A stretch of 64,000 bases of DNA from Russula earlei (taxonomy: Eukaryota; Basidiomycota; Agaricomycetes; Russulales; Russulaceae): positions 164,557 through 228,556 of the forward strand of contig JAGFNK010000031.1 in the NCBI GenBank assembly GCA_025769875.1, read 5' to 3'. This document shows, one piece after another, positions 1,177-47,563 of this stretch; position 1 is the stretch's first letter, and the number at the start of each line of letters is the position of its first letter. Under the pieces are notes generated by a model. The model saw only the letters and a list, made by a program, of their open reading frames with translations. It was not told where the DNA came from and searched no databases. A program made the position numbers and the translations under genes.

Positions 1177-1288
1177 TGAAGAAAAGTAGCGACCATTAAT
1201 ATTCACGTGATGACCACACGCGACGCGTCTCTTTGTGTTTGTTTGCTCCTGCCTAGTTCATACTTTCACTACCGTCTTAATTACTGCA

Positions 1289-3428: not shown

Positions 3429-3933
3429 GGGGAGGAGTCCTTTGCCTCCACATTCGATGGATTTACGACTATTTTGATCTTATGCTTACTATCTTCATCT
3501 GGTTTCATCTATCAACCGAATGCGTTGTTATTTTGTCTGGATGCATAATGTCGCACCAGCGACTAGTATTTGCCATAATGTTAACGGGGTGAGGTCAAGC
3601 AGGAACGTCATCATCGAGTGATCATGGTACCCCCTTTGAAAACCGAACCCTACAGCGTGATCATAATTAGACTCTCGGCAGGTTGGACGATTAGGATGGA
3701 GGGCACGGTATTTAGTTGTTGCCGTCACCAAATTTGTAAAGGTTGTAGTAGAGGCAAATGTGGAGAGATCATTGTAAGTGAAAGATCCAGTAAAACGGGC
3801 TATTATCAAGGTGGTAACATGAGATAACATACGTCTCGAGAAAACATCCAATAGTCGAGAAAAATCCAGTTCCGCATCGTCTGAAGGTCGAAAGGCAAAA
3901 TATAGGTCATAAACATACTATCTACAGAATGTC

Positions 3934-27930: not shown

Positions 27931-28440
27931 CTATAGGGGTACGACAGTCCAGTGAGTTGTGTCCCACAGGTATGTGACAGTGTATGCTGGTAGTAGTGTG
28001 GGTATGCCCTGTTGTTGGACCTGGAGGTTTTGACTGATGCGGAAGTATTCTTCTGTGACACCAGAGTATGTTATTGCTATGCAGCCTTTCCACAGGAAGC
28101 CTTCAAAGTCTAAGGGGTGCAGGGCGAACTGGCTGATTTCTTCTAGGGGGTGATCTATGTGAACAAAAGCTTGCGTTCGAGCATGCCACAGTTCTTTGCA
28201 ATGACTCTTGAAGTCTAATAATTCCCTATGCATCCTACGAGGTAGTACTGATCCTAAGTATGCTAACTCTGGGGAGTAGCACCATAAACCAACTATGGAA
28301 CCAGGGGGTGACTGGCTACTACTTGAGTGTTCTACTAAAGGAGTAGCAAAGGGAGTTAAAAGTTGATCAGTAAACGGAAGGGGAGCTGGAATAACTGGGG
28401 GAAGTAAGAGGCAATGGGCAATCTACTCAGGAGCTTAAAA
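27931..28440 (-). pseudogene. Element 1: ORF C (unknown retroelement protein)
   Basis: C-terminal 100 residues are open (27931-28233) and upstream homology continues (PFATPLVEHS, CYSPELAYL) to about 28440. Compared with ORF C of elements 2 and 3 it shares RELLDFKSHC/RELIEFKNYC, EISQFA...P.(D/E)FEGFLWK, VTEEYFRI and a final YTVTYLWDTTHWTVV. No known domain is recognised. Conservation of sequence and order with the two other copies argues that it is a real gene of the element. Confidence 0.6.
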
Positions 28441-29411
28441 CTGCAGAAGCAGAGCGGCGGCCTCTTTGTCTGTGAGAGGGTGCCAGAGTGGTTGGTACAG
28501 GAGATGTCTATCTCTAGGGCTCCACTGGTTAATACCTGGTGGTGTAGGGGGAGTGTCTGGGCGGTAGCCACAATTGCACACCTCTCTGAGGCAGAGGCAA
28601 GAGGCTGGGTGAGTTGGAGTCAGGGACCAGTGGGTGATAAGGCTACTTGCCGGGGTTCATCTGGTTACAGGGGTGAGTGGCTGGCTGATGGTGGAGAGTT
28701 CCTCCAGGACAGGGGGTCCGGAGTACACTGTTGGAGGTGGAGAGTATAGCACTGTGGGGTCTATGAGGTTCTGAGGGGCATCAATGATACTGTGAGTCCA
28801 TGTCGCTTCAATCCAGTTGTAGATGTATCTTCTTCCCTCCACATATGCTAGTTGGAGGGTAGCTTGTCCCTCTCGTATGAACCTATTCAGATGGAGGTAG
28901 TTGCACTGTACAGCAATGTGCACATGGGTGAGGGTGAATAAGGACAAGTAGTAGGATGCTTGTCCTTCTAGTAGCTCCTGGATGAGGGCATAATGCTGGG
29001 GCAAGATGACTTCAGTCCAAAGCCTCTCATTGCTGTCCATGAGGGTGAGGATGTCGGTGGGATGTCCTTCGAAGTCCCTTGAATTTGAGAGGTGCCAGAA
29101 CAACAGCTGACATTGTGTGGGCTCAACGAGATGATTTAAAGTGTTGATGAACAGGTCATATTGTGTCTGGTTGAGGATTTGTCCAAACAGGAGGAGGCCT
29201 ACCAAATCTCAGAGGATGTATGCATTGTGTGACCAAACATCAATGTTTTGGCAGTCATAGATGTTGACTGTGGAGATCAGGGGGAAGTAGATGTCCTGAA
29301 GGATGGGAAGGTGGTTGGCAATGAGCTCTCTCTGGTGGAGGATTGTGTTGTCCACAGAGTCATATTCGGAGTCAGTGCTTGGGTTGGGGGAAACTGTGAA
29401 ATGTGGAGGCA
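28441..29411 (-). pseudogene. Element 1: ORF B (unknown), start made by splicing
   Basis: The frame begins TG-CCT-CCA-CAT at 29411, directly after an AG acceptor; splicing out 29412-29460 (49 nt) joins an upstream A to make ATG. It reads MPPHFTVSPNPSTDSEYD..., with one TGA at about 29209-29211, then LLLFGQILNQ, LLFWHLSNSRDFEG, LWTEVILPQHYALI, YLHLNRFIREGQATLQLAY, all aligned with ORF B of elements 2 and 3. The Cys-containing end (CNCGYRPDTPPTPPG) is reached after a frame change. Function unknown. Confidence 0.62.
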
Positions 29412-29460
29412 CTACAGATACTTTGATTTGACGGTCTAGTGTTACAAGGGTAGTTCTTAC

Positions 29461-30340
29461 TTTTAAGAACTATGCACTAGGAAGCGATGTTGATAATACT
29501 TGGGCAAAGGGGATCCAAGGTGAGCAGAGGGTTCAAGGGTAGATGGGGTAGAAAGCAAAAGCGAGCTAAGGCAGGGTAAAGACGGAGGTTGTCAAGGGTA
29601 TTTGAGTAAGCGTTCTCGAATGATATATATCCTCCCTCAGCCACCCTTAAGTAAGCATATGAGTAATAGACCCTGCCATCAAGGAAGTCATGATTGGAAG
29701 TAATGAGAAAAGATCCTTGATAAGCAAAGCGATAAACAGGGGCCAATGTTTCCAAATGGCGACGTATAGATGAGTTGATTAAGTAATGAAGGCGACCAAA
29801 GGGGAAGTCTATATCCAGAGGGTGTATGCCTATGGAGCTACACACCTCGAAGCTTGCTAGGTTAAATTGCCTGACAAGGTCAGGATTGGTAGGCAACACT
29901 GCAAAAGTGTGGGCAGTTTTGGCCCAAAAGGGGGAAACAAAGGAGTCGGTGGATGGTCACTGGAGCAAGTGACCTATAGTAGGGATAGTGGAAAGGGCAT
30001 CACGTTGTCCTGCTTCCTCCAAAGGGTGCCAGTGTTCAAGTTTGTTTTGTTGAACACAGTAAACTTGAAATTGATGAGGGTGAAAGGCATATTCTGCACA
30101 GTCGGGGGGATTGAAGAAGCCTTGCGGAATGGGGGGAAGGTTTTCTTGTTTGGAAGAGGGGTTGTCTTCAATGTAAGTCCCTGGAAGGGGAAGTACTGCA
30201 ATAGGGGGAAGTCCGGGTGGCAGAGATAACCCCGGAACCAAGGGGAAAGATTGAGGGAGGGAGAGGAGTTGGATGTCGGGAGTGTGAGGCTCCGGAGACC
30301 CAGCAGTAGGGACGTTGTCAGACACTTGGTGGGTTGACTG
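29461..30340 (-). pseudogene. Element 1: ORF A (unknown)
   Basis: Homologous to ORF A of elements 2 and 3: P.P.GF...PPDCAEYAFHPHQFQVY, HTFAV, FEVCSSIGIHPLDIDFPFGRLHYLINSS, YRFAYQGSFLITSNHDFLDGRVYYSYAYL, LRLYPALARFCFLPHLPLNPL. One TGA interrupts it near 29955. The putative start, TG-TCT-GAC-AAC after CACCAAG at about 30330, again looks like an acceptor that would supply ATG by splicing. No known domain recognised. Confidence 0.6.
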
Positions 30341-30356
30341 GTCAGCACAGGTTGGT

Positions 30357-30411
30357 AGAGACTGTCCAGAAGTCAAGACTCACTGTTGAACAATCCAGTT
30401 CAAGAGCAAGC
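30357..30411 (-). repeat. Element 1: primer-binding site and 5' LTR relic (family 2)
   Basis: On the minus strand the sequence TCTGGACAGTCTCT (30357-30370) is the putative primer-binding site, shared with elements 2 and 3. Next to it lie 41 bp that are the inverted end of the family-2 LTR (compare 26657-26697 and 32044-32083). Element 1 therefore had a family-2 LTR, now cut by the insertion at 30412. Confidence 0.6.
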
Positions 30412-32207
30412 TGTCAAGACACGTACTGCTGATCACTAAGGACTCAGGAGCAGGTGGGCAAAGGTCGGAACAGATGGTACGCGGCGAAGGCGGCGTTGAA
30501 CAGGAGGACGAGCCAAACGACAAGGAGGTACCAGATGGGGACTGGTAGGTGTTGCAAGAGGCAGAGGCGAAGACTGGAGGCCAGTGCAGCGAAGGGGCTT
30601 TAGACAAGGCAGTCGTTGAAGAGTACCTTGGAGGCGAGGGAAGTCTTTAAACTGAGCGGTCACAGGGGAGTACCCAGGAGTATGAGAGTATCACAAATGG
30701 ACAGTCTGACGACTGCCATGCTTCATTGGGGCTTATATACAGTGTACAGGGTCGATTACAAAGACCTGGGACTATTCTAGACTCTTTGATACCACCCAAT
30801 AGGACTACAGAGGCATAAACTTGCTTGTGTCAAGTTTCAGGCTTACTGAGCGCATTACTGATCATTGTGGAGCGATGACATCATTATGATGTCACTGTGG
30901 AGCGCTTAGTGAGCCTATGAGGTCACTGTGGAGTCGCTCAGTCAGCTATGATGTCATTGGAGCCTGGATGACGTCAGATGATTTATGCAACAGTTTCTAA
31001 GGGTTTGTGCCACTGTTTCGGGTCCTTGGTGGCTGGGTGGCCATGTGGCTGCCACGCGATGATTACCCGATTAGGAAACGGGTGCCTGGTCGAGTTATAG
31101 TGCCTTTGCAATAGCGATATCTGTCATGAACCATTCTCCAGAGAGGGCCCTTAAAGGACCCTTCCTTATAGGAGGAAACCTGGTCTCTATGGTGTCACCC
31201 TGTTCACACGAGCAAAAGGGGTGAGTAGAGGTGTCCACAATATCGCGCGCGCATTGTTGCGCGAGCGATTCTTGGCACAATCGACATACAGCAAGCCCCA
31301 CTTAAAAGCAACCCTTCTAGCAACAAAAGACAGTATTAGGGCCTTCCTAAGGACCCTTTGGAACGACCCTAGAAGCTCTACTATAGGCACTAACCTAGTA
31401 TCAAAGACCCCACAACGCGTTATTAGACCAACTCTAATAACTATAGAACGAACTATAAGGCAACACTAAGGACCTTAATAAGAGTATTAGGGTCGACTCT
31501 AGGGACCCTAATAGAACTATATAAGGGCCTTATAAAGATAACACTATTCCCTGACCAAACTACAAGTCCTCAAATGACCGGCCCTAAACTAACTAACAGG
31601 AAATGAATCAGGTGCTCGCACGTGCACTAAAGCAATGAACACGTGGACAATGGAAGCTCTTACTCATCAAAGGAGCCTTCTTACTCAGCAGCTTACTGAG
31701 CATGACTGAGCATGCTCAGTAAGCGTCCTCCGACTTCTTACTCATCACTCTACTGTGCTTGATAACAAGGTTATGACTTGTTCCATATTCAGCAGTTCTC
31801 TTGTAGTATATAAGCACTCAATAAAGTAGCGGACAGTCCTCAGACTGTCCATTTGTTTACGGCACTCTCCATCCCTGGGATACTCCTTTAAGGACCGTCC
31901 CCTTGTGACCACTCTGGCCTCTTCCCTGTGTGATTGTTCTACTCTCACAGTAACAATACCCCTCTGGTATTTGTTACTACTCTGGACTTTACTCCTTGCC
32001 CACGCCGTCTTGGACGTCTACCGACTCGTCTTCAAGCTTATCCCTCGCTCTTGAACTGGATAGTTCAACAGTGAGTCTTGACAATATCTTGCACTGCAAG
32101 GGGGATAGCCCAGAAAACGGAAGGGAGTTGGTAATGCAAAATGAGAGAGGTCTCTCTTGAGTGAAATAGGACCATCTACGGTCAGGACTTGGCCTTGGTT
32201 CGTAACA
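30412..32207 (-). mobile_element. 3' LTR of the composite element (with nested insertion)
   Basis: LTR sequence 30412-31121 continues at 32084-32207, ending GGTTCGTAACA. The break is a nested LTR at 31122-32083. The left flank CAAGC (30407-30411) equals the right flank of the LTR at 47564-48393, so these two LTRs bound one insertion. The inner side carries a purine tract (TAAAGAGGGGATGAA on the minus strand, 32208-32222), the expected plus-strand primer. Confidence 0.88.
31117..32088 (+). mobile_element. Nested family-2 solo LTR (962 bp) with target duplication
   Basis: Begins TGTCATGAACC at 31122, ends GAGTCTTGACA at 32083, and is flanked by ATATC on both sides (31117-31121, 32084-32088). 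It contains TATATAAGCACTCAATAAA near 31808 and a 14-bp inverted repeat (31691-31724). It inserted into the LTR that starts at 30412 and is thus younger than it. Confidence 0.88.
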
Positions 32208-32446
32208 TTCATCCCCTCTTTATAGACTTGTTGCTCCTGCAACGGTAGGGACTTGTTTCTTTGGGAGGTGGAGTAGTTTGCATATGAAAAGTCGAAGTCT
32301 GTTTGTTCGTGGGGAATTCTTTCTTGTTTTATGGATTGCTTTGGGGATAGCTGTAGTCGATTGAGTGCATGTGATCGCAGGGGTTCTTTGAGAAGTTCGT
32401 TGGTAACAAGGATAAAGGTAGTCGTCGACAGAGGTCATGATGAGAG

Positions 32447-35400
32447 TTATTGGTTTAGGGGGTTACTCCTGGTGGGAATTGTTTTAAGCGCTTTCGGATA
32501 TTTCCGATGGAAGTCTTTGACAAGTGATTGCGCTCTTGATAGGTTAGAGGCTGGTTCCCAAGTATTTTCTGCAGCAGTGTACCCTTTCCATTTAACTAGG
32601 TATTGAATCCCTTTGCGGTTCGGGGAGAGTCGAGAATTTAAGATCTGTTCCACTTCGTATTGCTCTTCTCCTTCGATTAGTACCGGTGGTGGGTTTGAGA
32701 AGTTAGGGCCATGGGCAGCGGTTTCTTTATAAGGTTTGATCAGGGAGTGGTGAAAAACTGGGTGTATCTTCCAAGACTTTGGTAGTTCAAGGCGAACATT
32801 TACTGGATAGGCAGTGGTGACTTTGAATGGCCCATAGCGTCGAGGGGCTAGTTTTGCTTTTGGGTGAGTGGTTCGTAGATTTGTGGCTTCCAGCCATACT
32901 TGATCCCCTTCTTTAAAACGAAATGTGGAGGATTGGGGTCCTGATTGTTTCATGATTCTCTGTTGCTCGGTTCAGGGAGGCAGCTACTTCTTCTCTGAGT
33001 TGGTTTAGTCTTGATAGTCTTTCTTGGATTGAAGGGAACTTTGATGTAAAGGCAAGGGGCGGAGCAAATGTTGGGTTAAAGCCATACCAGACCTCAAAAG
33101 GGGGTTTGTTTCGTAGCACTGTGTTGTCTGGCATTATGTGCGAACTCCATAAAGGGAATCAGTTCTGCCCAATTGTCTGCTTGATGGTTGCAAAATATTC
33201 GTAGGTATTGTTCTAGTTCTTGGTTAACTCGTTCTGTTTCTCCGTCTGTCTGTGGGTGATATGCTGTGCTTAATGATACTTTGACATTTAACTTCTTCCA
33301 TAGTTCTTGAGTAACTTTTGCTGCGAATTGAGGGCCTCTGTCTGATATTATTTGTGTCGGGAGGCCTATTCTTCTCCAGACATTGTTCATGATTAGTGTC
33401 GCTGTTTCATCTGCTGTGATTGTCTTGTGGCAAGGGGTAATGATTATTGCTTTACTGAATCGATCTACCACGACTAGGAGGCTGTCAAAGCCTTGTGAAA
33501 TCGGTAGGTCCGTGATAAAGTCCATGGTAATGCTTTTCCATACTTCTCCGGCTGGTGTAATTGGTACAAGGGGTGTTTCTGTCTTTGGACGGTTCTTTGT
33601 ACTCTGGCAAATTGCGCAACCGTCTACGTAACTTTTGACATAGGTTAGCATTCCTGGCCACCAATAGTTTCGGCTGATTAGTTCGTAAGTTTTCCATTGG
33701 CCAGGATGTCCAGTGGCAAGGGAGTCGTGGTGTAGTTTCAGAATTTTCTTTCTTAGGGTGTCGTTGTTTGGGATATAGACTTTTCCTTTGAATAATATTA
33801 GTCCATCTTCGAGGTTCCAGTCCTGTAAGCCTTTGGATAGTCGTCTTGGTCCATTCTTTATAATGATTGCTAATGCGTTAGATACTTCTGGGTCATAGTC
33901 TTTGCTAGATCGTAGTTGTTGTCGAAGTTCCTGGTCGCCGATTGGTTCTGTAGCAGGAGGTGCGTGTTGCTCTGATTTTAAAAAATTTGTCATCTAGGAG
34001 CACCTTTCCATCATTTTCGTTTTGTATCCCCTCTTTAAAGTCTGGCCGCCTGGACAGACCGTCTGCTTTGTTCATAGTTACCTGGGTGGTGGGTGATAGG
34101 TGAAGTCGAAATTGCTGAGGAGGAGTGCCCATCGGGCTTGTCGTCTCGTGAGCTTTTGTTTTGTCATGAAGTAATGTCAAGTTATTGTGGTCTGTCCATA
34201 GATCAATGGGGTGTGTAGCGCCTTCAAGGTAGTGTCGGAAGTGCCAGAGGGATAAGACGATAGCAAGGAGTTCTTTATCGTAGATCATGTAATTTCGTTG
34301 TGCGGGGTCCAAGGATTTCGAGAAATAGGCTACTGGGTGATATCTATTAAATTCATCGGGTTGTTCCAAGATTGCACCGACTGCAAAGTCACTTGCATCG
34401 CAGATGAGTCGAAAGGGTTTCGTATGGTCAGGTAACATGAGGATTGGGGCCATTGTGAATGCTTGGATTAGCTTCTGAAATGCTTGTTCTTCATCGTCTT
34501 CCCATTTGAAGGGGTTTTCTTTCTTTGTTAAGTTAAACAAGGGCCGTGCTATTCGAGAGTATTGGTGGATAAATCGTCGATAGAAGTTGCAGAATCCTAG
34601 AAATGCTTGTACTTCCGTAACATTGGTCGGAGTAGGCCACTTTGTAATGCCTATTAACTTGTCTTGGTCCATGGATATTCGTCCTTGGGAGATATTGATG
34701 CCTAGGTAACTAATAGAGGTTTGTCGGAAAGCACATTTCTCTGGTTTCAAGTATAAGTCGTGGTCTTGGAGTGTTTTTAGGACCTTATGTGTCCAGTCGT
34801 CTAGTTCGTTCAAGGTTTGCGCCATGATTAGTATATCATCTAGATAAACAACCACTCGTTCAGTGGCGATGTATTTTGCTAGGATGGTGTTCATAAAGCG
34901 TTGGAAAGTGGCTGGGGCGTTGCAGAGACCAAATGTCATTATCAATGGTTCGAAGAGTCCTAATGGTGTCTTGAATGCTGCGAGGTGTTCATCGCCCTCT
35001 CTGAGGCGAATATTGTTGTATCCCCATCGTACGTCAAACTTGGTAAAGTATTGGGCTCCTTGGAGTTTGTCAATTAATTCAGGAATCAAGGGTAGTGGAT
35101 ACGCGTCTTTGACAGTTGCTGTATTCAGGGCTCTGTAGTCTTGCACTGGTCGTAGATTTCCTCCTTTCTTTTCTACAAAGAAGAATGGGCTGGCAATAGC
35201 TGCTTTTGATGGTCGGATTGTGCCTCTCTTCAAATGTTCGTCTAAGTATTCTTTTAGGGCTTGTAGTTCTTTGGGAGTAAGTCGGTAGATGCCAGAATCA
35301 CGTCGGGCGAATCCCTGGTTTTAGATTGATTGCATGGTCCCATGGTTGGTGAGCAGGAAGGCGTTGAGAGGCTTGTTCGTCAAAAACCTTTCGCCATTTC

Positions 35401-36240
35401 AAGAACTGGACAGGGATAAGTTCGTCTAATGTCTTGGGGGGTGTTTCTGCATGGGCTAGTTTGGTAGCTGTGGTTGATTTGGCTCTTATGCTGATTGTCA
35501 CTGGTCGGAATGCGTTGTAGATTTGTTCGTCTACACATGGGTTCAATGGTCCTTCAGTATCTGGGAAGATTAGTGCAGCAACGTTTGCAAATTCAGGTTC
35601 TTCGTCTTCAGGGAAAAGTAAGCGCTTGTATTTGGTAATTCCGTGTTCCAGATGCAGATGCAATGGTTATGCTTGGGTGCGTGGTAAGGCAGGTCCGAGG
35701 ACAATTCCTCAGCGTGATTGTGTCGTTTGCCCAATCGATATCTGGGTTGTGGTGTCGTAGCCAGTCTGTTCCTAAGATGATGTCGTGATCTCCAATGTTA
35801 GTAACAAGGAATTCTGCTTGTTCGTCATGGGTAGCGCCTGTATGCGCTTGAATGCGGAGTCTCTGGATAGTGCTAAAGCGTATTAGTCCATTGGCATTTT
35901 GTGTTCCATCTACATTCTGTGCTGGCAATGGTTTGGTCATAGTTCGGAGGTGCAGGTGGTGTCTTTGTGCGAATCGCTCGTGGATTATCATTCCTTCTGC
36001 TCCACTATCGAGCAGGGCTCTTGCACCGATTTCTTTGCCGCTTGTCTTCCCCACTAAAGTAACTTTCAAGGCAATGGAAGGGGAGCGAATGTTCTTGGTA
36101 AAAACTTTGGGGTAATTGATTTCTCTCTGTATCGTACTGATTTGGACCATGTCCCTTCTCGGTGCAGAAGGGGGTCCAATTAAAAATCCATAGGAGCAGA
36201 TCTTGGGCGGAGGATCGAGTCCGCAAGTGTTTCTCTCCAA
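32447..36240 (-). CDS. Element 2: Ty3/Gypsy pol polyprotein (frame broken by single extra bases)
   Basis: Order on the minus strand: protease (LLDSGAEGMIIHERF), RT (RGTIRPSKAAIASPFFFVEKKGG, TKFDVRWGYNNIRL, VVVYLDDILIMA), RNase H (LICDASDFAVGAILEQ), integrase zinc domain (HHDSLATGHPG ... CAICQ), DDE core ([26 protein letters not shown]) and chromodomain (EEQYEVEQILNSR, YLVKWKGYTAAENTWEP). All catalytic motifs are present. The frame changes at about 35617, 35305, 34170, 33113 and 32940 are each one extra base against element 3 or 1, several in homopolymers (TTTT, CCCCC). With those errors aside the copy would be young and near complete. Confidence 0.88.
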
Positions 36241-37688
36241 GTTGTTAATGATGCAACAGGAATAGGTTCTTCTTGTGCAGGTTCAATGTTTTCATCTTGG
36301 ATGGTTGTAGCTCTGACTGTTTGGGGGCGAGATCCTTGTCGTTGGCGTCCTTGGGCTGCTTTCTTTGCTCTACATTGATTTGCCATATGGTTCTTCTTTC
36401 CACAATAATAACAGAGGTTGTTCTTGCGTCGAAACTCTTTCTCTGTATCTGTGAGAGGTTTTCTTTCACTTTTGGTTTCCCAAGGTCGTTCATTAGGTTC
36501 TCCTTGATACAAGTTAATTTCCAAGGGATTATCTGATCCCTGAGTGTTTAATCCTCGGGTACGCACAGAGCGTCCTCCTCGAAAAGCAGTGGAGTTGTAT
36601 AGGTGGAAAAGGTTGTCAAATTCTCTTGCTGCTTTGACAAGGGCTGCAAGTGTAGTTGGTGTCGGCGTGATCCCTAGTATTTTCTGATGTAGGGCCGGGT
36701 TAATATTCTTCCTGAATGCGTACATCTTTGTTCTTTCGTCAGTGGTAGCTCGTGATGCGTGGTGCGACCATTTCTGATACCATTCATTAAATGGTAGTTT
36801 CCCTTGATAGTAGGTGTGCATGGTATTAGCGGAGGCCAATTCTGCTTCTGCAGGAATAAAATGATCGGCAAAGGCTTTCTTGAAGTCGTCCCATGACCCA
36901 TAGTCTGCTACGGTACGAGCCATAGCCTTGGTGGTTTGTTCTCTAGCCCATGCTCCAGCGGGTGTTCCTACTTTAAAGTGGGTTAGTGCAGCGGCAACTT
37001 TCTTGCTTTCATCTGTAAAGGAGTCGCCATTGATGTAATAATAATTGGCCAAAGCTGCCCAAAAGGCTTCTGCGTTATCAGCCTTTCCGTCAAAGGGTTC
37101 TGGTGCTGTTCCAACAAGGCGCGGATTGCTTGACATGGTGGGATTCTGAGTTGTTGTAGCTGTAACAATAGGTGGGGCTGAACCTTGTAGTTGGATTCTA
37201 GTTGGAGTGAGCGTTCGAGGGACTGCTTGTGGTACGTTGCTAGTTGTATGAGGAGTAGGTTGTTGGGTATTACGCCGAGTAGAAGGTCCTGGAGTGGTGC
37301 TTCGAGTGCTCTGAGCAGTTCCTAGGATAGCGGTAACTTCTTGAGGTGTTCTGGCTGAGAAATCGACTTCTCGATTGTTATAGTAAACCCAATGTCTTCT
37401 AGAACGGCTCCACTTGACTGGTCTGTCTAGGAAAAGGCCTGTGTAGTTATAGGGGTTGAAGTCTTGAACGTTTTCTGCTCCTGGGGCTGCCGCTTTAAGT
37501 TGTTCAGTGGTAACTTCGTCGTTATCGTCTTCGTATAACCAAGTGTCAGAAAGATTTCCGTGGTTGATAATAGGGGTGCCTGCAAATTTTCCTCGGTAAC
37601 AGTGATCTTGGGTGTCGTAACTGAGGTTTTCAAATAGGAGTGGGATTAGATTTTCTTCTTCGTCAGTGATGTCCCTCCTAGTGCTCAT
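36180..37688 (-). CDS. Element 2: gag
   Basis: Open frame of about 502 codons from ATG 37688 to TAA 36180. It has an acidic N-terminus, a Ser/Thr/Pro-rich linker, a retrotransposon gag domain (AEAFWAALANYYYING ... GSWDDFKKAFADHFIP ... LPFNEWYQKWSHHA) and a CCHC knuckle (CYYCGKKNHMANQC). The ATG lies 4 nt after the ORF C stop. Pol overlaps its end in the -1 frame, so a -1 ribosomal frameshift at the T-run before the stop is likely. Confidence 0.9.
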   Translation of the reverse strand: MSTRRDITDEEENLIPLLFENLSYDTQDHCYRGKFAGTPIINHGNLSDTWLYEDDNDEVTTEQLKAAAPGAENVQDFNPYNYTGLFLDRPVKWSRSRRHWVYYNNREVDFSARTPQEVTAILGTAQSTRSTTPGPSTRRNTQQPTPHTTSNVPQAVPRTLTPTRIQLQGSAPPIVTATTTQNPTMSSNPRLVGTAPEPFDGKADNAEAFWAALANYYYINGDSFTDESKKVAAALTHFKVGTPAGAWAREQTTKAMARTVADYGSWDDFKKAFADHFIPAEAELASANTMHTYYQGKLPFNEWYQKWSHHASRATTDERTKMYAFRKNINPALHQKILGITPTPTTLAALVKAAREFDNLFHLYNSTAFRGGRSVRTRGLNTQGSDNPLEINLYQGEPNERPWETKSERKPLTDTEKEFRRKNNLCYYCGKKNHMANQCRAKKAAQGRQRQGSRPQTVRATTIQDENIEPAQEEPIPVASLTTWRETLADSILRPRSAPMDF

Positions 37689-37692
37689 AGAT

Positions 37693-38274
37693 CTAGACAA
37701 CTGTTATAGTCCAATGACCGTTGTTCCAAGGATATGCAATGGTGTAGGCTGGCTTTAGTCGAATGGTATCGGGTCTTCCTTGATGTTTTCTTAATTGGAT
37801 TCGGGAGTATTCTTCAGTAATGCTGCTTTGTGTTAGAACTACTCGGGTTTTCCACAGATATCCTTCAAATTCTGCTGGGGAGATGGCAAAGTCACTTATT
37901 TCCTTGGTGGGGTGCTTGTAAACTATAAAGTGTGTCAGTCGTTGATGCCAAGCTTGGGTACAATAATTCTTGAATTCAATTAACTCTCTCCTTGAACGCG
38001 TAGGTAGGTTTAATGCTAAGAAGGATTGTTCTGGTAGATAACAGTGTAAATCAGTATTCCTAAGATCGGTACTATCAGGGGATTCAACAAGGGGTGATGC
38101 AAAGGGTTGGACAGGTATGACAGGGGTAGGAATACGATTGGTAAACAAGGGTACGTAGGCGTCAGGAGGGGTAGGAGGTAATGGTCTTTCAACAAGAAAT
38201 CCTCTTGCGTTGGGAACTGTTTCTCTCTCAGGGGGTCGTTGGGATGACGCGCGTCTCCTGTGTCGAGGAGCCAG
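37693..38274 (-). CDS. Element 2: ORF C (unknown, 193 aa)
   Basis: Directly downstream of ORF B and 4 nt upstream of gag. In element 3 the ORF starts with ATG two bases after the ORF B stop; here that codon is CTG (38272-38274), so translation may be reduced or use a non-AUG start. Features: basic N-terminus (APRHRRRASSQRPPER), Pro-rich VERPLPPTPP, then a folded-looking domain with RRELIEFKNYCTQAWHQRLTHF, EFEGYLWKTRVVL, SITEEYSRI and final YPWNNGHWTI. No known domain. Same length (193 codons) as in element 3. Confidence 0.75.
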   Translation of the reverse strand: MAPRHRRRASSQRPPERETVPNARGFLVERPLPPTPPDAYVPLFTNRIPTPVIPVQPFASPLVESPDSTDLRNTDLHCYLPEQSFLALNLPTRSRRELIEFKNYCTQAWHQRLTHFIVYKHPTKEISDFAISPAEFEGYLWKTRVVLTQSSITEEYSRIQLRKHQGRPDTIRLKPAYTIAYPWNNGHWTITVV

Positions 38275-38276
38275 AT

Positions 38277-39195
38277 TTATCGAATGGGGAGATGGTAATC
38301 GCCTGGCGTCCACAAGGTAATTCCGTCAGGAGTAGGGGGTGTGTCTGGTCGAAAGTTGCACGTGCAATACTCTGTTTTGCAGTTACACCTTGCTGTCCAC
38401 GGATTTGACTCAGTATCTTCTGTGCTGGCAGACCAACGTTCTTGGCTAGTTGGGACAGTGGTCTGAATCGGTGTGAGGGGTCGAGGGGCGAGACTTGAGG
38501 CTTCTAGGAATTGCTGGGACAGAATAGTACGCAGGGGGACCAGTATATGAGGCGTCTGGGCTGGTAATTGCCCAAGGTTGATTATAATCTGCGTCGTACA
38601 ACCACGAGTTAGTTTCCCAATCGAAGGTGTTGTGTATTCCTGGTACAACCGCAAGTTGGACGTAAGATTGATTTTCCCTTTGTATTCTGTTGAGACGTAG
38701 GTGATAGAACTGGACAGTGAGACGATAGTAGCTGATGTATGTCCAAGCTAAGTAGAACAAGCGGTATCCTGTTCTCAAGGAGTGGATAATGATGTGGTGA
38801 CGTGGTTGAATGACTCTGGTCCAGAGGTTTAATTCACTGGTGCGTAATGATTGGTAGTCAACTGGTTGTCCTTGGATGTTCTTCGCTTGAGCAAGGTGCC
38901 AATATAATAGTTGTTGTCGTGCTGGTGGTAGAAGTCGACTAAGGGTTTCAAGGTATAGTGCGTGTTCGTCGTGGCTTAAGAGCTGTCCAAAAGGTAAGAC
39001 TCCAAGGAACTCTTTAACAATAAGGTGGGGGAAGTCCTCGTGAGGTGGTTCAATTTCTGGTACGTCGTGTAAGTTGGTTAAAGTGGTGACAGGGAACGCA
39101 ACGGAGGTCCCAGGTTCGATAGTGATTTAGGATTAAGACGTGTCTAGTGATAGCGTCTTCTTCTTCGTCTTCTTCTAAGGCGTATTCTCGTGGCA
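38277..39195 (-). CDS. Element 2: ORF B (unknown), start codon created by splicing
   Basis: The frame opens TG-CCA-CGA-GAA at 39195 just after TAAAG; removing 39196-39262 (67 nt, GTAAGA donor, TAAAG acceptor) joins the A at 39263 to give ATG. The protein is acidic at its start (REYALEEDEEEDAI), then LPFGQLLSHDEHALYLETLSRLL, YWHLAQAKNIQGQP, LYHLRLNRIQRENQSYVQLAVVPG and a Cys cluster near the end (ARCNCKTEYCTCNF). Two single extra bases (about 39103 and 38508) split it here. Function unknown; the Cys cluster could bind metal. Confidence 0.72.
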
Positions 39196-39262
39196 CTTTA
39201 GTTAAAGCAAAAAAAGGATCTTTATTCGATCTTTATTGAAGCGTTACAAGGGTGGTTCTTAC
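39196..39262 (-). promoter_or_regulatory. Predicted intron between ORF A and ORF B (element 2)
   Basis: GTAAGAACC donor, TTTAACTAAAG branch/acceptor end, 67 nt. The ORF A stop TAA ends 3 nt before the donor. The donor sits in an inverted repeat (GGTTCTTA ... TAAGAACC). The equivalent interval is 67 nt in element 3 (46537-46603) and 49 nt in element 1 (29412-29460). Confidence 0.6.
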
Positions 39263-39265
39263 TTT

Positions 39266-40187
39266 TTAAGAACCGTGCGCAAGATCTATGGTTTCGAGGC
39301 AGTACCTCTCGATTATATCGAGGGGGTTAGGGGGAATACGAGGCATGAAACAGAAGCGAAGTAACTGGGGGTTGAAGCGTATGGTGTCGACTGTATAAGT
39401 CGAATAGTGACGTAGAGATACGCGGTTACTGTTCTCCTCGAAATGTAAGTAACCATAAGCAAAGGCGAGGCGTCTGTCCAAGAAGTCGTGTACGATAGAT
39501 AAGCAAAACGAGCCCTCATAAGCAGGGCGGTAAATAGCAGGCAAGGTAAGTAGTTTCCTAAACAAAGAAGTGTTAAAGATGTATGTGATGCATCCGAGGG
39601 GGAAGTCAGTGTCTGGGGCATATATCCCGACATTGGAACAGATGCCAAAAGGGGTCAGGTTGTACTGGGTGGCAAGGGCAGTGTCAGATGGTTCCACTGC
39701 AAAAGTGTGGACGATGCATGCACGAAAGGCGGTGGTGTAAGTGTCTGTGAACATGCGACGAGTTAACTGGTCTGAGGTAGGGATGCGTCCCAAGTAGTCT
39801 TGATGATTCAAGTCGTGGAGGGGGCGCCACTGCTCGCAGGAACGATTGGTGGAAGGGAGGACGAAGTACTGGTGCGGATGGAAGCGAAACGCTGTGCAGG
39901 GGGGACGGTCAAGGAAGCCTTCAGGCAAGGGAGGATGGTCTGCTTGCTGTTGCTCGTTCTGTGCTGGAGGGGGAGTGCCGATGGGGACGAAGTCACCTGG
40001 GATAGGCTGGGCAGTGGTAGGGGACAATGGGGGAGCCATTGGGGAGTACAAGATGCTGAGGGGGGAAGATGCGTCAACCGGATTGAGATCTTCAGTGAGA
40101 AGACGAAGGGTGGTGCGTGGAGTGGGCTGGAGAGGAGAAGGGAGACACAGGGAGGTATTGACAAGAGTAAGGGAGTTGGGAGTAGAC
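39266..40187 (-). CDS. Element 2: ORF A (unknown, about 307 aa)
   Basis: First ORF after the primer-binding site. N-terminal 90 residues are Ser/Thr/Pro-rich; the rest looks folded: PPCTAFRFHPHQYFVLPSTNRS, HTFAVEPSDTALATQYNLTPFG, CSNVGIYAPDTDFPLG, YRPAYEGSFCLSIVHDFLDRRLAFAYGYLHF, RFCFMPRIPPNPLDIIE. No ATG begins the frame; it opens TG-TCT-ACT-CCC after CTCAAG, an acceptor-like site, so the start codon is probably made by splicing from a leader exon ending in A. No known domain; not an envelope (no signal peptide or membrane helix seen). Confidence 0.72.
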
Positions 40188-40221
40188 ACTTGAGTGTTGG
40201 CTGGTCAATACAAGAATGTTT

Positions 40222-40235
40222 AGAGACTGTCCAGA
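40222..40235 (-). other. Element 2: putative primer-binding site
   Basis: TCTGGACAGTCTCT directly abuts the 5' LTR and is identical in elements 1 and 3, with divergence right after it. TGGACAGTCTCT would pair with a tRNA 3' end reading AGAGACTGTCCA. The tRNA is not identified. Confidence 0.55.
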
Positions 40236-41653
40236 TGTCAAGACACGTACTGCTGATCACTAAGGACTCAGGAGCAGGTGGGCAAGGGTCGGAACAGATG
40301 GTACGCGGCGAAGGCAGCATTGATGTTAAGATTCTCTCAATTCTCGAACTGTCATCTGTTTCCACTGACTCGTCTATGATTACTCATGTGTCTGCTTATC
40401 AATCTGGCTCAGTGATTGCTTACTGATTGGCTTACCGATTGCTTACTGATGCTTATCAATCTGGCTTAGTGATTGCTTACTGATTGGCTTACCGATTGCT
40501 TACTGATTGATTACTGATTGCTTACTGATACTAGGAAAGAATGACTCACGCGTGAGTCATTTCCAACACTCTGAATTGCGCTTTCTGTATTTGGATACTA
40601 CGCGTTCTCAGCTATGTACACCCCGAGTTTCGTACAAATCGGATCAGTAGTTATCGAGATATCGTATAAATAGTCTGTAGTACCAAGAAGTCGAGCCTTA
40701 CGCTCAACTTACACCTTTCTACAAGATAATCATCTTGTCAACCGATCTAAACAAATTATAGTGCAGACTCTAACCAAAAGAGGCCCCTCTCTTTTCTACA
40801 TTCAATCTTCCTGAGATAATATCAAAGGGTTCGAAGTCTAGTGCTTGAACGATATCAAGCAACTCTTTCACAAGAAGAGTCGGTACTAAGATCTGTCAGA
40901 TCTTAACAATTGAACAGGAGGACGAGCCAAACGACGAGGAGGTACCAGATGGGGACTGGTAGATGTTGCAAGAGACAAAGGCGAAGGCTAGAGGCCAGTG
41001 TAGCAAGGGGGCTTTAAACAAGGTGGTCGTTGAAGAGTACCTTGAAGACGAGAGTAGACTTTAAACTGAGCAGTCGTGGGGAGTACCCAGGAGGATGAGA
41101 GTATCACAAATGGACAGTCTGACGACTGCCATGCTTCATTGGGGCTTATATACAGTGTACAGGGTCGATTACAAAGACCTGGGACTATTCTAGACTCATT
41201 GGTACCATCCAATAGGACTACAGAGGCATAAACTTGCTTGTGTCAAGTTTCAGGCTTACTGAGCACATTACTGATCATTGTGGAGCGATGACATCATTAT
41301 GATGTCACTGTGGAGCGCTTAGTGAGCCTATGAGGTCACTGTGGAGTCGCTCAGTCAGCTATGATGTCATTGGAGCCTTGATGACGTCAGATGATTTATG
41401 CAACAGTTTCTAAGAGTTTGTGCCGCTGTTTCGGGTCCTTGGTGGCTGGGTGGCCATGTGGCTGCCATGCGATGATTACCCGATTAGGAAACGGGTGCCT
41501 GGTCATGTTATAGTGCCTTTGCAATAGCGATATCTTGTACCACAGGAGGGATAGCCCAGAAAATGGAAGGGAGTTGGCAATGCAAAGTGAGAGGGGTCTC
41601 TCTTGAGTGAAAGAGGACAATCTACGGCCAGGACCTGGCCTTGGTTCATAACA
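40236..41653 (-). mobile_element. 5' LTR of element 2 (with nested solo LTR)
   Basis: TGTCAAGACACG at 40236 to GGTTCATAACA at 41653; without the nested 585-bp LTR and one duplicated 5-mer it is 828 bp, matching the other copies. It directly abuts the truncated pol of element 3 at CCATGATTAG, a sequence found inside intact pol (34823-34832), which marks the insertion point of element 2 in element 3. On the minus strand a TATATAAGCCCC box is visible near 41145. Confidence 0.85.
40319..40913. mobile_element. Nested solo LTR (585 bp, third LTR family) with target duplication
   Basis: TGTTAAGATTCTC at 40324 to GATCTTAACA at 40908, flanked by ATTGA on both sides (40319-40323, 40909-40913). It carries an internal run of GATTGCTTACTGATTGGCTT-like units (about 40412-40531) and a TATAAATAG box near 40665. 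No internal element of this family is in the window. Confidence 0.9.
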
Positions 41654-43560
41654 CCATGATTAGTATATCATCTAGATAAAAGACCACTTGTTCAGTGGCA
41701 ATGTATTTTGCTAGGATGGTGTTCATAAAGCGTTGGAAAGTGGCTGGGTTGTTGCAGAGACCGAATGTCATTATCAATGGTTTGAAGAGTCCTAATGGTG
41801 TCTTGAATGCTGTGAGGTGTTCGTTGCCCTCTCTTAGGTGGATATTGTTGTAACCCCATCGTACGTCAAACTTGGTAAAGTATTGGGCTCCTTGGAGTTT
41901 GTCGATTAATTCAGGAATCAAAGGTAGTGGATAGGCATCTTTGACAGTTGCTGTGTTCAGGGCTCTGTAGTCTTGTACTGGTTGTAGACTTCCTCCTTTC
42001 TTTTCCACAAAGAAGAATGGACTGGCAATAGCTGCTTTTGATGGTCGGATAGTGCCTCTTTTCAAGTGTTCATCTAAGTATTCTTTTAGGGCTTGTAGCT
42101 CTTTGGGAGTAAGTTGATAGATTCCAGAATCGTGTCAGGTGATCCCTGGTTTCAGATTGATTGCATGGTCCCATGGTTGGTGAGCAGGAAGGCATTGGGA
42201 AGCTTGTTCATCAAAAACCTTTCGCCATTTCAAGAATTGGGCAGGGATAAGTTTGTCTAATGTCTTGGGGGGTGTCTCTGCATGAGCTATCTTGGTAGCT
42301 GTGGTTGATTTGGCTCTTATGCTGATTGTTATTGGTCTAAATGCATCGTGGATTTGTTCATCAACACATGGGTTCAATAGTCCTCCAGTATCTGGGAAGA
42401 TTAGTGCAGCAACGTTTGCAAACTCAGGTTCTTCTTCTTCAGGGAAAGTAAGCACTTGTATTTGGTAATTCCATGTTCCAGATGCAGATGCAATGATTAT
42501 GCTTGGATGTGTGGTAAGACAGGTTTTGGGGCAGTTCCTCAGTGTGATTGTATCATTTGCCCAATCGATATCTGGGTTGTGGTGTTGTAGCCAATCTGTT
42601 CCTAAGATAATATCATGATCTCCAATGTTAGTGACAAGGAATTCTGCTTGTTCATCGTGAGTAGCGCCTGTGTGCACTTGTATGCGAAGTCTTTGGATGG
42701 TGCTAAAGTGTATTAGTCCATTGGCATTTTGTGTTCCTGTAGCGAGCCAGTCCAGGGCACGCTGAGTTCGTGGGGCTGGATGGCAATCCAAAACAGTTGT
42801 CTTGACCCAAGAGCAAGCAGAAAAAGAGGGGGAGGGAGAAGAGAAGGAGAGGAGAGGAGAGCAAGATCACTCGTGTGTGGAAGTTTCTGACTGAAGGTAA
42901 GGGGAACTCAAGAAGACTGTATTCTTCCTCTTCTTCTTTTTTTTTACAGAGTAGCTAGGTGTTTTATATACAGGAGAGAAGTACTAAGGATGAAAGGCAT
43001 GAAAGGGAGATAGGCATGAAAGAGAATCAAGACTGGTCAAGATGGTCAAGGCCATGGTGAAAGGCCTGAGACGTGAACGTGTCGCGTGTGCCGAGGCGTG
43101 GCATGTGCATGTGGTCAGTGGCAAGGACTGGGCGATGCAATGTGAGGAATGAGGCAAGGTGTGGGAGGAGGCCGAGCATCACGCATCGCCCATGGTCCAC
43201 ACATGGTTCTGAGGCCAGCAATATGGCTCACCTTACATTCCATCTATATTTTGTGCTGGCAAGGGTTTGGTCATAGTTTGGAGGTGCAGGTGGTGTCTTT
43301 GTGCGAATTGTTCATGGATTATCATTCCTTCTGCTCCACTGTCAAGCAGGGCTCTTGCACCAATTTCTTTGCCGCTTGTCTTCTCCACAAGAGTAACATT
43401 TAAGGCAATGGATGGGGAGTGAATATTCTTGGTAAAAACTTTGGGGTAATTGATTTCTCTTTGTATTGTACTGATTTGGACTGTGTCCCTTCTCGGTGCA
43501 GAAGGGGGTCCCATTAAAAATCCATAGGAGCAGATCTTGGGCAGAGGATCGAGTCCGCAA
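41654..43560 (-). pseudogene. Element 3: truncated pol (protease and half RT)
   Basis: Protease (LLDSGAEGMIIHEQF), linker and RT up to VVFYLDDILIM, then cut by the LTR of element 2. RNase H, integrase and chromodomain are missing. A TGA replaces an Arg-type codon near 42135, and the protease is split by a solo LTR at 42738-43237. Compared with element 2 many CG pairs are TG or CA. Confidence 0.8.
42734..43241. mobile_element. Nested solo LTR (500 bp, fourth LTR family)
   Basis: TGTAGCGAGCC at 42738 to CTCACCTTACA at 43237, flanked by TTCC on both sides (42734-42737, 43238-43241) within the otherwise continuous protease sequence GTGTTCCATCTA. It has a GA-rich tract (42820-42865) and a TTTTATATACAGG box near 42962. 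Confidence 0.85.
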
Positions 43561-45028: not shown

Positions 45029-45035
45029 AAGTTTT

Positions 45036-45617
45036 TTAGATGATGTTTATGGTCCAATGGCCATTGTTCCAAGGATATGCTATGGTATAGGCTGGTTTCA
45101 GTTGAATGGAGTTGGGTTTTCCTTGATGTCTTTTTAACTGGATCTGGGAGTATTCTTCAGTGATGCTGCTTTGTGTTAGAACTACTTGGGTTTTCCACAG
45201 ATACCCTTCAAATTCCGCTGGAGATTTGGCAAAGTCACTTATTTCCTTGATGGGGTGTTTGTAAACTATAAAGTGTGTCAGTCGTTGATGCCAAGCTTGG
45301 GTACAATAACTCTTGAATTCAATTAACTCTCTCCTTGAACACATAGGTAGGTTTAATGCTAAGAAGGATTGTTCTGGTAAGTAGCAGTGTAAATCAGTAC
45401 TCCTAAGATCGGCACTATCAGGGGATTCAATGAGGGGTGATGCAAAGGGTTGGATAGGTACAACAGGGGTAGGAATACAATTGGTAAACAAGGGTAAGTA
45501 GGTGTCAGGAGGGGTAGGAGGTAATGGTCTTTCAACAAGAAATCCTCTTGCATTGGGAACTGTTTCTCTCTCAGGGGGTCGTTGGGATGATGCGTGTCTC
45601 CTGTGTCGAGGAGCCAT
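45036..45617 (-). CDS. Element 3: ORF C (unknown, 193 aa, intact)
   Basis: Begins with ATG 45617, two bases after the TAA of ORF B. MAPRHRRHASSQRPPER start, VERPLPPTPP, RRELIEFKSYCTQAWHQRLTHF, EFEGYLWKTQVVL, SITEEYSQI, end YPWNNGHWTI. Fully open although gag and pol of the same element are dead. Function unknown. Confidence 0.75.
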   Translation of the reverse strand: MAPRHRRHASSQRPPERETVPNARGFLVERPLPPTPPDTYLPLFTNCIPTPVVPIQPFASPLIESPDSADLRSTDLHCYLPEQSFLALNLPMCSRRELIEFKSYCTQAWHQRLTHFIVYKHPIKEISDFAKSPAEFEGYLWKTQVVLTQSSITEEYSQIQLKRHQGKPNSIQLKPAYTIAYPWNNGHWTINII

Positions 45618-45619
45618 AT

Positions 45620-46536
45620 TTATTGAATGGGGAGGTGGTAATCGCCTGGCGTCCACAAGGTAATTCTGTCAGGAGTAGGAGGTGTATCTGGTTGAAAGTT
45701 GCACGTGAAATACTCTGTTTTGCAGTTACACCTTGCTGTCCATGGATTTGACTCAGTATCTTCTGTGCTGGCAGACCAACATTCCTGGCTAGTTGGGACG
45801 GTGGTTTGAATTGGTGTGAGGGCTCGAAGGGCAAGACTTGAGGCTTCTAGGATTGCTGGGACAGCATAGTATGCAGGGGGACCAGTATATGAGGCATCTG
45901 GGCTGGTAATTGCCCAAGGTTGATTGTAGTCTGCATTGTATAACCAAGAGTTAGTTTCCCAATCAAAGGTGTTGTGTATTCCTGGTATAACAGCAAGTTG
46001 GATGTAAGATTGGTTTTCCCTTTGTATTCTGTTGAGGCGTAGGTGGTAGAACTGGACAGTGAGACAATAGTAGCTGATGTATGTCCAAGCCAGGTAAAAC
46101 AGGCGATACCCTGTCCTTAAAGAATTAACAATGAGATGGTGACGTGGCTGGATGATCCTGGTCCAAAGGTTCAATTTGCTGGAGCGCAGGGATTGATAAT
46201 CAACTGGTTGTCCTTGGATGTTCTTTGCTTGAGCAAGTTGCCAATATAATAGTTGTTGTTGTGCTGGTGGCAGGAGTCAACTAAGGGTTTCAAGATATAA
46301 TGCATGTTCGTCGTGGCTTAGGAGTTGTCCAAATGGTAAGACTTCAAGGAACTCTTTGACAATGAGATGAGGAAAGTCTTCATGGGGTGGTTCTATTCCT
46401 GGTACATCGTGTAGGTTGGTTACAGTGGTGACAGGGAATGCAGTGGAGGCCCAAGTTTGATAATGATTTAGACTTAAGATGTGTCTAGTGATAGCATCTT
46501 CTTCTTTGTATTCTTCTAGGGCGTATTCTCGAGGCA
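45620..46536 (-). pseudogene. Element 3: ORF B with one TGA stop
   Basis: One continuous frame apart from a single TGA at 46277-46279, where element 2 has CGA (Arg). The 67-nt intron 46537-46603 would again make the ATG. Layout: acidic start, LPFGQLLSHDEHALYLETLS, LRLNRIQRENQSYIQLAVIPG, Cys cluster ARCNCKTEYFTCNF. This copy defines the full ORF B length (about 305 aa). Confidence 0.75.
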
Positions 46537-46605
46537 CTTTTAGTCAAGGCAAAGAAAAAGATTTATTTGATCTTTATTGAAGTGTTACAAGGGTGGTTCT
46601 TACTT

Positions 46606-47515
46606 TTAAGAACCATGTGCAAGATCTATGGTTTCAAGATGGTACTTCTCAATTATTTCAAGAGGGTTAGGGGGAATACAAGGCGTGAAGCAGAAGTGAA
46701 GTAACTGTGGGTTGAAGCGGATGGTATCAACTGTATAAGTCGAATAGTGGCATAGGGAGACGTGGTTACTGTTCTCTTTGAAATGTAAGTAACCGTAAGC
46801 AAAAGCGAGGCGTCCATCCAAGAAGTCATGTACAATAGATAAGCAAAATGAGCCCTCATAAGCAGGGTGGTAAACAGCAGGCAAGGTAAGTAGTTTCCTA
46901 AACAAAGAAGTATTAAAGATGTATGCAATGCGTCCGAGGGGAAAGTCAGCATCTGGGGCGTAGATCCCGACATTGGAACAGATGCCAAAGGGGGTTAGAT
47001 TGTACTGGGTGGCAAGGGCAGTGTCAGATGGTTCCACAGCAAAAGTGTGGACGATGTGTGCATGAAAGGTGGTTGTGTAGGTGTCTGTGAAGCCACAATG
47101 ACTCAACTGGTCTGAGGTAGGGATGCATCCCAGACAATCTTGATGGTGCAAGTCGTGGAGGGGATGCCACTGCTCGCGGGAGTGGTTGGTGCTGGGGAGG
47201 ACGAAGTACTGGTGAGGGTGGAACCAGAATGCTGTGCAAGGGGGGCGATCAAGGAAGCCTTCAGGCAAGGGAGGACAGTCCGCTTGCTGCTGCTTGTTCT
47301 GTGCTGAGGGGGGAGTGCTGACAGGGATAAAGTCACCTGGAATAGCCTGGGAAACGCTGGGAGACGACAGTGGGGCTGTTGGGGAGTATAAGATGCTGCA
47401 GGGCAAGGAGGTGTTGACCGGGTCAATGTCTTCAGTGAGGATGTGAAGGGCAGTGCGTGGAGTGGGCTGGAGAGGAGAAGGGAGACGCAGGGTGTTGGGG
47501 GAGTTGGGAGTAGAC
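46606..47515 (-). CDS. Element 3: ORF A (unknown, about 303 aa, intact)
   Basis: Open throughout and about 85 percent identical to ORF A of element 2. It begins TG-TCT-ACT-CCC after GCTCAAG (47516), again acceptor-like. Shared folded part: FHPHQYFVLPSTN, HTFAVEPSDTALATQYNLTPFG, SIVHDFLDGRLAFAYGYLHF, IPPNPLEIIE. Stop TAA at 46606-46608 lies inside the inverted repeat that holds the intron donor. Confidence 0.75.
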
Positions 47516-47563
47516 ACTTGAGCATTGGCTGGTCAATACAGGGATGATGAGAGACTGTCCAGA

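Follow-up and report, generated by a model that had tools for sequence, protein, structure and literature searches.

A chromodomain Ty3/Gypsy lineage in Russula earlei with three genes ahead of gag, an AUG-free leader, and start codons that may be completed by splicing

The window analyzed here, 64,000 nucleotides (nt) of Russula earlei contig JAGFNK010000031.1 (positions 164,557 to 228,556 of the forward strand), holds three Ty3/Gypsy chromovirus elements on its minus strand, which are nested or rearranged and which we number 1 to 3 (Table 1). Ahead of gag, all three carry the same open reading frames (ORFs), A, B, and C, in the same order. The initial annotation had reported these ORFs and their order, and had noted that A and C are open in element 3 while its gag is dead; both descriptions are borne out on the minus strand. 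The window copies are decayed, and the lineage is better read from other genomic copies, above all L035, which is of the element 2 type, and L041, which belongs to the distant subfamily of element 1. In element 2, Gag matches Pfam Retrotrans_gag at 24.5 bits against a cut-off of 24.1, the CCHC knuckle falls slightly below its Pfam cut-off, and the protease, reverse transcriptase (RT), RNase H, integrase, and chromodomain of pol lie well over theirs. RVT_1, RT_RNaseH, Integrase_H2C2, rve, and Chromo follow one another in successive ORFs, which is the domain set of a chromovirus.

ORF A has at least 147 matches in the fungus's own genome (66.6 Mb), window elements 2 and 3 included, and 19 of these have a stop inside the match; the element 1 type contributes about 70 matches at 63% identity or more among 150, some of them pieces of one copy. 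When the longer copies of both subfamilies are compared, with internally deleted copies set aside, stretches homologous to A, B, C, and gag, some of them frameshifted, follow one another in that order in L032 to L036, in L041, and in window elements 2 and 3. The assignment of the three ORFs to a Ty3/Gypsy lineage thus stands, their order between the primer-binding site (PBS) and gag being kept in the nondeleted copies. The ratio of nonsynonymous to synonymous substitution rates (dN/dS) among unique copies, 15 lower-ranked ones included, is 0.129 for A (46 copies, 985 pairs), 0.088 for B (36 copies, 625 pairs), 0.137 for C (30 copies, 332 pairs), and 0.079 for gag (7 copies, 20 pairs), values that are well below 1, which the annotation had named as supporting evidence, and that are rough because CpG decay probably inflates dS in old copies. 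Pairs were limited to a dS of 0.03 to 0.8, which retained 985 of 1,035, 625 of 630, 332 of 435, and 20 of 21, respectively. The lower-ranked copies alone gave 0.166 for A (15 copies, 89 pairs), 0.116 for B (7 copies, 21 pairs), and 0.166 for C (6 copies, 12 pairs). In-frame stops, counted in rows anchored on L035 from which frameshifts escape, occur in 3 of 46 A, 10 of 36 B, 5 of 30 C, and 1 of 7 gag copies. Between the two subfamilies, L035 and L041 share 41% amino acid identity in A, 47% in C, and 53% in gag; the 32% found for B between L035 and L039 is an underestimate, because the 345-amino-acid (aa) frame of L039 leaves the B register in its first part, before an indel. These data support A, B, and C as conserved proteins of this lineage that evolve under purifying selection.

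Twelve relatives were found, seven of A (P0001 to P0007) and five of B (P0008 to P0012). Two are R. earlei gene models at 84 and 64% identity, the former being the closest named relative of A, and the other ten lie at 26 to 42%. As the annotation had stated, no domain is recognizable in the three proteins: a Pfam search of A, B, and C gave no match over the cut-off, a PDB sequence search gave none for A and C and only E values of 0.79 or worse for B, and Foldseek searches with predicted structures of A and B gave no match at an E value of 0.001. The predicted structure of A has one confident domain, at about residues 110 to 220 of the modeled piece, and the B relatives share a Cys-rich stretch followed, close to the end, by RPDTPPTP. 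Nothing suggests that A to C are known domains split artificially. Common ancestry of the three was considered and rejected, as hhalign aligned neither A with B nor A with C, and B with C only weakly (probability 6%, E = 0.0063, 48 columns). Their role is most likely that of accessory or host-interaction proteins. In L041, a further Met-free stretch lies between C and gag (L041:5633-6014 on the minus strand of the locus; 3788 to 4169 in the sense direction) and contains a roughly 65-aa unit (ATYAEVVKGE..LYKP...CKDPYC.WH) twice, in frame with gag and followed each time by a stop, possibly a fourth ORF, D, of the element 1 type.

The annotation's interpretation of A to C holds, but it overlooked that the ORFs lack start codons and that the leader of intact copies is free of ATG, two features that may be the key to how A to C are expressed. 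The L035 leader (804 to 3652; 2,849 nt) has no ATG in any frame ahead of the gag ATG at 3653, where 21.9 are expected; that of L033 (803 to 3657; 2,855 nt) has none against 22.0 expected, and that of L041 (1045 to 4169; 3,125 nt) none against 23.7. Expectations come from 300 dinucleotide shuffles, the lowest of which contained 11 (L035), 13 (L033), and 14 (L041). The lack is strand specific, because CAT, the reverse of ATG, is undepleted (41 observed versus 41.2 expected in L035, 45 versus 41.9 in L033, and 59 versus 47.1 in L041). The next-longest ATG-free runs on the same strand measure 552 (L035), 553 (L033), and 771 nt (L041), and all lie just inside gag. In 2,000 synonymous-codon shuffles that kept the proteins and their codon use, off-frame ATGs averaged 2.7, 6.9, and 3.2 in A, B, and C of L035 (summed mean, 12.8), and none is observed (P = 0.038, 0.0005, and 0.0095); for A, part of B, and C of L041 the means were 2.5, 2.0, and 3.6 (summed mean, 8.1), again with none observed (P = 0.033, 0.09, and 0.004). 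Gag and pol are undepleted, with 13 off-frame ATGs in gag versus 15.4 expected in L035 and 13 versus 11.0 in L041. Zero ATGs were found in 15 of the 36 unique element-2-type copies with more than 2,000 nt of leader aligned, some of them 6 to 8% different from L035, and 1 to 27 in the others. Most ATGs aligned over 46 copies (207 of 267) sit at an ACG of L035, and the leader therefore gains ATGs as it decays; in decayed leaders, including that of the window at 37693 to 40188, ATG at a former ACG is a sign of CpG-type C-to-T decay. Of the relatives of A and B, 10 of 12 (P0003 to P0012; 3,461 aa) have no internal Met, the Russula gene models P0001 and P0002 having 2 and 8.

ORFs A and B each begin at an AG/TG (the slash marks the splice site) that closes a short intron, 53 to 67 nt long in L035 and L041, with an A before the donor. 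The L035 leader contains only two strong donors (GTRNGT or GTAAG), A/GTACGT at 1093 and A/GTAAGA at 2081, and the AG/TG sites 62 and 67 nt from them open A (307 aa) and B (305 aa). Of six AG/TG sites in this leader, these two open the longest frames. L041 has its introns, of 59 and 53 nt, in the same positions, with donors A/GTGAGT at 1340 and A/GTAAGA at 2263; the intron 1 donor thus differs in sequence. Joined, the L035 and L041 junctions would read GCA^TGTCC and ACA^TGTCC for A and AAA^TGCCTC in both for B, each containing an ATG. A branch motif, TTGAC in L035 or CTGAC in L041, places the branch A of intron 1 16 to 17 nt from the intron end, and intron 2 of L035 has TTAAC 6 nt from its end. 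Among the 15 ATG-free copies of the element 2 type, to which the counts are confined because the subfamilies cross-match, the intron 1 sites are intact in all 15, as are GTAAGA and AAG/TG of intron 2, whose preceding A is aligned in 13 and falls in an alignment gap in 2. All five jgi relatives of A (P0003 to P0007) start with Val-Ser in the database, which is probably how AG/TGTC appears to a gene finder. A PBS-like TGGACAGTCTC, common to both subfamilies, lies two bases past the long terminal repeat (LTR) (L035:1110-1120), and intron 1 holds both the final LTR bases and this stretch; a genome pattern search for a tRNA end matching TGGACAGTCTC gave no match.

For C, a start made by splicing was rejected: no AG/TG opens it, and an AT/G split is impossible in an ATG-free leader. 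We also rejected a B-C fusion through a 56-nt GTGGAC..CACAG intron, as the donor of this intron is weak and no intron-free genomic copy was found. A CTG with A at -3 and G at +4 is conserved at the head of C in both subfamilies, and C is perhaps begun at CUG. This is a guess, and the leader has such codons at other sites as well (total, 3 in L035 and 8 in L041).

Splicing of a retrotransposon can leave its mark when the spliced RNA is copied back into the genome. A search for the joined intron 2 junction found C95:129035 (exact) and C465:40093 (one mismatch), and a second pattern, shortened by one A, matched C839:48 exactly and C1152:13038 with two mismatches; reversed controls gave 0 in both searches. 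Four genomic copies thus lack intron 2, compared with 302 matches to the intact donor region. Three of them (L059, L060, and L062) have lost precisely the GT-to-AG segment, and the ATG of B arises at the join. L059 shares 99.6 to 99.7% identity with L019, which has the intron, but only 91.5% with L060; the copy closest to L060 among those sampled, L008, has the intron as well, and there were therefore at least two independent losses. As L061 shows, the element around the L059 copy is long: it has a 5' LTR and an intact gag ORF, and its 3' LTR runs off the end of the contig. The exact losses are indirect evidence that spliced RNA is made from the element.

We consider it probable that these sequences represent a chromodomain Ty3/Gypsy element with three accessory genes, a leader purged of AUG, AUGs of A and B that are made by splicing, and an unspliced RNA that serves as both genome and gag-pol message. 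Transcription would begin near the LTR TATA box, and a ribosome scanning the ATG-free leader of the unspliced RNA would meet the gag AUG first. Removal of intron 1 would both provide A with an AUG and destroy the PBS; because intron 1 includes the LTR end and the PBS, the RNA that makes A could not be reverse transcribed. Removal of intron 2, between A and B, would by itself provide an AUG for B. A new AUG at A or B would be expected to capture ribosomes ahead of gag, which is perhaps why intron-less copies are rare. The model predicts no copy free of intron 1, because RNA without the PBS cannot prime reverse transcription, and none was found in either subfamily. We favor, though with distinctly less assurance, the broader proposal that the lineage separates genome from message by A/TG starts split across introns, an AUG-purged 3-kb leader, and a PBS within intron 1, and that the Met-free relatives in environmental sequence point to a device general within this lineage.

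Several observations weigh against this interpretation. The number of strong donors is at the level expected by chance after base shuffling (2 versus 3.0 in L035 and 5 versus 3.8 in L041), such that the places of the donors, not their number, appear to be telling. L041 has a third A/GTAAGA, at 3063, whose AG/TG 85 nt on opens only 50 aa, and another AG/TG of L035, at 1084, opens 150 aa, the next longest after A and B. Pairs of A/donor and AG/TG also occur elsewhere: six on the window's plus strand, 5 of the 11 on its minus strand at places other than A or B, and one in the L035 LTR. No YTNAY branch match is present in intron 2 of L041. Read from the junction, the open frame of B spans 305 codons in L035 but only 39 in L033 and 92 in L041, although in L042 it extends up to a deletion break. 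Of the five B relatives, three (P0010 to P0012) start with M, whether from a genuine ATG or by conversion of the start, and two with V, and C has no AG/TG start at all. As for the intron losses, L062 and L059 are 99.0% identical and may descend from a single event, and L063 also lacks intron 2 in a noisy sequence. Splicing of intron 1 is predicted from its sites, and the absence of intron-1-free copies is weak support, since at the intron 2 rate (4 versus 302) only about 4 would be expected; likewise, no element-1-type copy without intron 2 was found among copies too few to expect many. None of eight lower-ranked long-leader copies is ATG free. Finally, the element 2 type, unlike L041, has two ATGs 13 and 20 nt past the TATA box's first base (L035:781-803), and its leader may not be fully AUG free if they are transcribed.

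The strongest competitor, which we regard as unlikely, is leaky scanning on unspliced RNA with non-AUG starts, GUG for A and B and CUG for C, in which most ribosomes would reach gag and the splice sites would be incidental or minor. It would account for the AUG-free leader, since ORFs without an internal AUG in any frame ahead of the main ORF are the pattern of Caulimoviridae-type leaky scanning; in rice tungro bacilliform virus (RTBV), ORF I starts at AUU and about 900 nt are without an internal AUG, according to the part of the source available (PMC5902531). It would also fit the conservation between subfamilies of GTG-TCC at A, GTG-CCT at B, and CTG-GC at C, as well as the Val-Ser starts of P0003 to P0007. 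However, the conserved GTG that would start A or B coincides with the AG/TG acceptor and is what that acceptor looks like unspliced, near-cognate codons in good context are undepleted elsewhere in the leader, and some RNAs had lost intron 2 before being copied into the genome again. Less likely again is a scheme in which introns 1 and 2 are removed constitutively, A and B are the main products, gag is made from further spliced or internally initiated RNA, and the leader lacks ATG for some other cause. Strong donors and short introns would suit it, but 302 intact donor places versus 4 intron-less ones show that most of the RNA that is replicated retains intron 2, and the depletion of off-frame ATGs through B and C would go unexplained. 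It is very improbable that base composition or amino acid use produced the lack of ATG: the leader is indeed C-rich and G-poor, but shuffles that keep its dinucleotide composition contain about 22 ATGs, codon shuffles give about 13 off-frame ATGs in A, B, and C of L035 together, and neither CAT nor the gag-pol of the same element is depleted. That A to C represent either an independent element or host genes now decayed, co-inserted once and riding along, is hardly credible, for although no similarity of A to C to known retrotransposon proteins was found, this is contradicted by a dN/dS of about 0.1, by their one order in two subfamilies at 32 to 47% amino acid identity, and by their place inside the LTRs in the copies examined.

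The window itself is a disturbed array, with a chitin synthase N terminus and a pentatricopeptide repeat protein in the flanks. Element 3 is interrupted in its RT by element 2 (41654 to 30409), the 3' LTR of which is in turn split by a solo LTR of the element 1 type. Element 1 adjoins element 2, with its leader at 30367 to 27644 and gag-pol remnants as far as 22450, and has a solo LTR (27637 to 26809; target duplication, CACAC) directly ahead of gag. The flanks of element 2 differ from each other, being the LTR of element 1 at 30409 to 30425 and the RT of element 3 at 41654, and carry no target duplication, which makes a rearrangement of the array after insertion probable. A 586-nt insertion with short ATCAGTAAGCAATC-like repeats lies in the element 2 5' LTR. 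Elsewhere, TG...CA LTRs are flanked by 5-bp target duplications, ACTGC in L031 and ACTAT in L042 in addition to that of the solo LTR; no matching duplication was found at L033, L034, or element 2. L042 (L042:388-6162) and L031 (279 to 6459, sense) are internal-deletion derivatives with target duplications. The LTRs of L042 are 99.9% identical and nothing but A, a portion of B, and the 3' portion of pol remains between them; this copy is therefore young and presumably moved in trans. At L043:4010-7743, long ORFs that we take to carry Copia-like motifs adjoin an element-1-type A-B leader.

Table 1. Features of the three elements in window coordinates; introns are those predicted from paired splice sites (slash, splice site)
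Feature	Position	Strand	Basis or remark
Element 2 5' LTR (TG...CA), with 586-nt insertion at 40324-40909	40233..41654	-	L033 LTR match to 41651-40910 and 40323-40233; sits in element 3 RT
Element 2 intron 1, 62 nt, A/GTACGT ... CAAG/TG; holds LTR end and PBS-like stretch (~40222-40233)	40189..40250	-	Donor/acceptor pair
Element 2 ORF A from A/TG junction, open	39266..40188	-	ORF; 307 aa from A/TG in L035
Element 2 intron 2, 67 nt, AAA/GTAAGA ... TAAAG/TG	39196..39262	-	Splice pair; exact intron loss in L059, L060, and L062
Element 2 ORF B, frameshifted here; open in L035 and L031	38277..39195	-	ORF comparison
Element 2 ORF C from candidate CTG (A at -3, G at +4)	37693..38274	-	Same site in L035 and L041
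Element 2 gag, ATG at 37688	36180..37688	-	Pfam
Element 2 gag end and protease-RT-RNase H-integrase-chromodomain, to 3' LTR	32205..36291	-	Pfam; LTR match
Element 2 3' LTR, split by plus-strand element-1-type solo LTR at 31122-32083	30409..32205	-	LTR match
Element 3 5' LTR	47561..48391	-	LTR match
Element 3 intron 1	47517..47578	-	Splice pair
Element 3 ORF A, open	46606..47516	-	ORF
Element 3 intron 2	46537..46603	-	Splice pair
Element 3 ORF B, one in-frame stop	45620..46536	-	ORF
Element 3 ORF C, open; ATG at the CTG site of element 2	45036..45617	-	ORF
Element 1 intron 1, 59 nt	30325..30383	-	Splice pair
Element 1 ORF A, one in-frame stop	29477..30324	-	ORF, splice pair
Element 1 intron 2, 49 nt	29412..29460	-	Splice pair
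Element 1 ORFs B and C, decayed	27931..29411	-	Leader match to L041 at 30367-27644

The RNA of a retrotransposon must be both genome and message, and the lineage described here may offer a simple switch between the two that is readable from DNA: splicing would make a start codon and, for A, remove the PBS. With about 3 kb free of AUG, the leader is a test case for how far a ribosome can scan, and it is a case in which selection appears to have purged AUG from coding DNA in all frames. The three protein families, which have no known relatives, are easily missed because gene finders look for a start codon, and genes may be worth seeking in long ATG-free leaders of other elements.

Parts of this arrangement have counterparts in known systems. 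Caulimoviridae are not known to have LTRs or an integrase; the R. earlei element has both and falls outside that family. RTBV and the badnaviruses nevertheless resemble it in having ORFs upstream of the main polyprotein that are free of internal AUG, which lets ribosomes scan through, as described in the accessible portion of the report cited above (PMC5902531). There, the AUG-free stretch is about 900 nt rather than 2.85 to 3.1 kb, and the starts are AUU and a moderate AUG, unlike the intron-split A/TG that we propose for A and B. With fungal chromoviruses the element shares the order Gag, protease, RT, RNase H, integrase, and chromodomain, and LTRs with 5-bp duplications. The families surveyed mostly have one gag-pol ORF or two ORFs, and one more ORF, its function unknown, is indicated in a figure legend; the portions of that survey available to us do not mention an ATG-free leader with three ORFs before gag (PMC2864245). 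Three ORFs before gag were also unfamiliar to the initial annotation, and we met no fungal element with an ATG-free leader, split start codons, or three pre-gag ORFs in the literature searched, a body that leaves most subscription journals outside its coverage.

Further parallels to single parts come from plants and humans. Tat elements of mosses and a clubmoss are Gypsy elements that also have an extra ORF before gag, but the available part of the source describes it as one ORF with a known domain, RNase H, rather than three without (PMC10508981). The barley copia element BARE1 keeps separate RNA pools for genome and translation and has a short, 104-nt alternatively spliced intron that alters the protein made and gives a Gag-only RNA, Gag being ended by a frameshift (PMC3735527). 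The likeness is to an R. earlei arrangement known from DNA alone, and in BARE1, as far as the accessible text goes, splicing neither generates a start codon nor serves an accessory gene (PMC3735527). Spliced integrated retrotransposed elements (SpIREs) of human L1, which make up about 2% of L1s (131 of 6,609) in the excerpted source (PMC5860796), likewise reveal the splicing of a retrotransposon RNA through genomic copies from which an intron has been removed. Those are L1 events of the 5' untranslated region (UTR) or 5' UTR/ORF1 kind, whereas in R. earlei a conserved gene gains its start codon at the junction. The element thus joins features known separately from other systems and adds to them putative intron-split start codons and three accessory genes.

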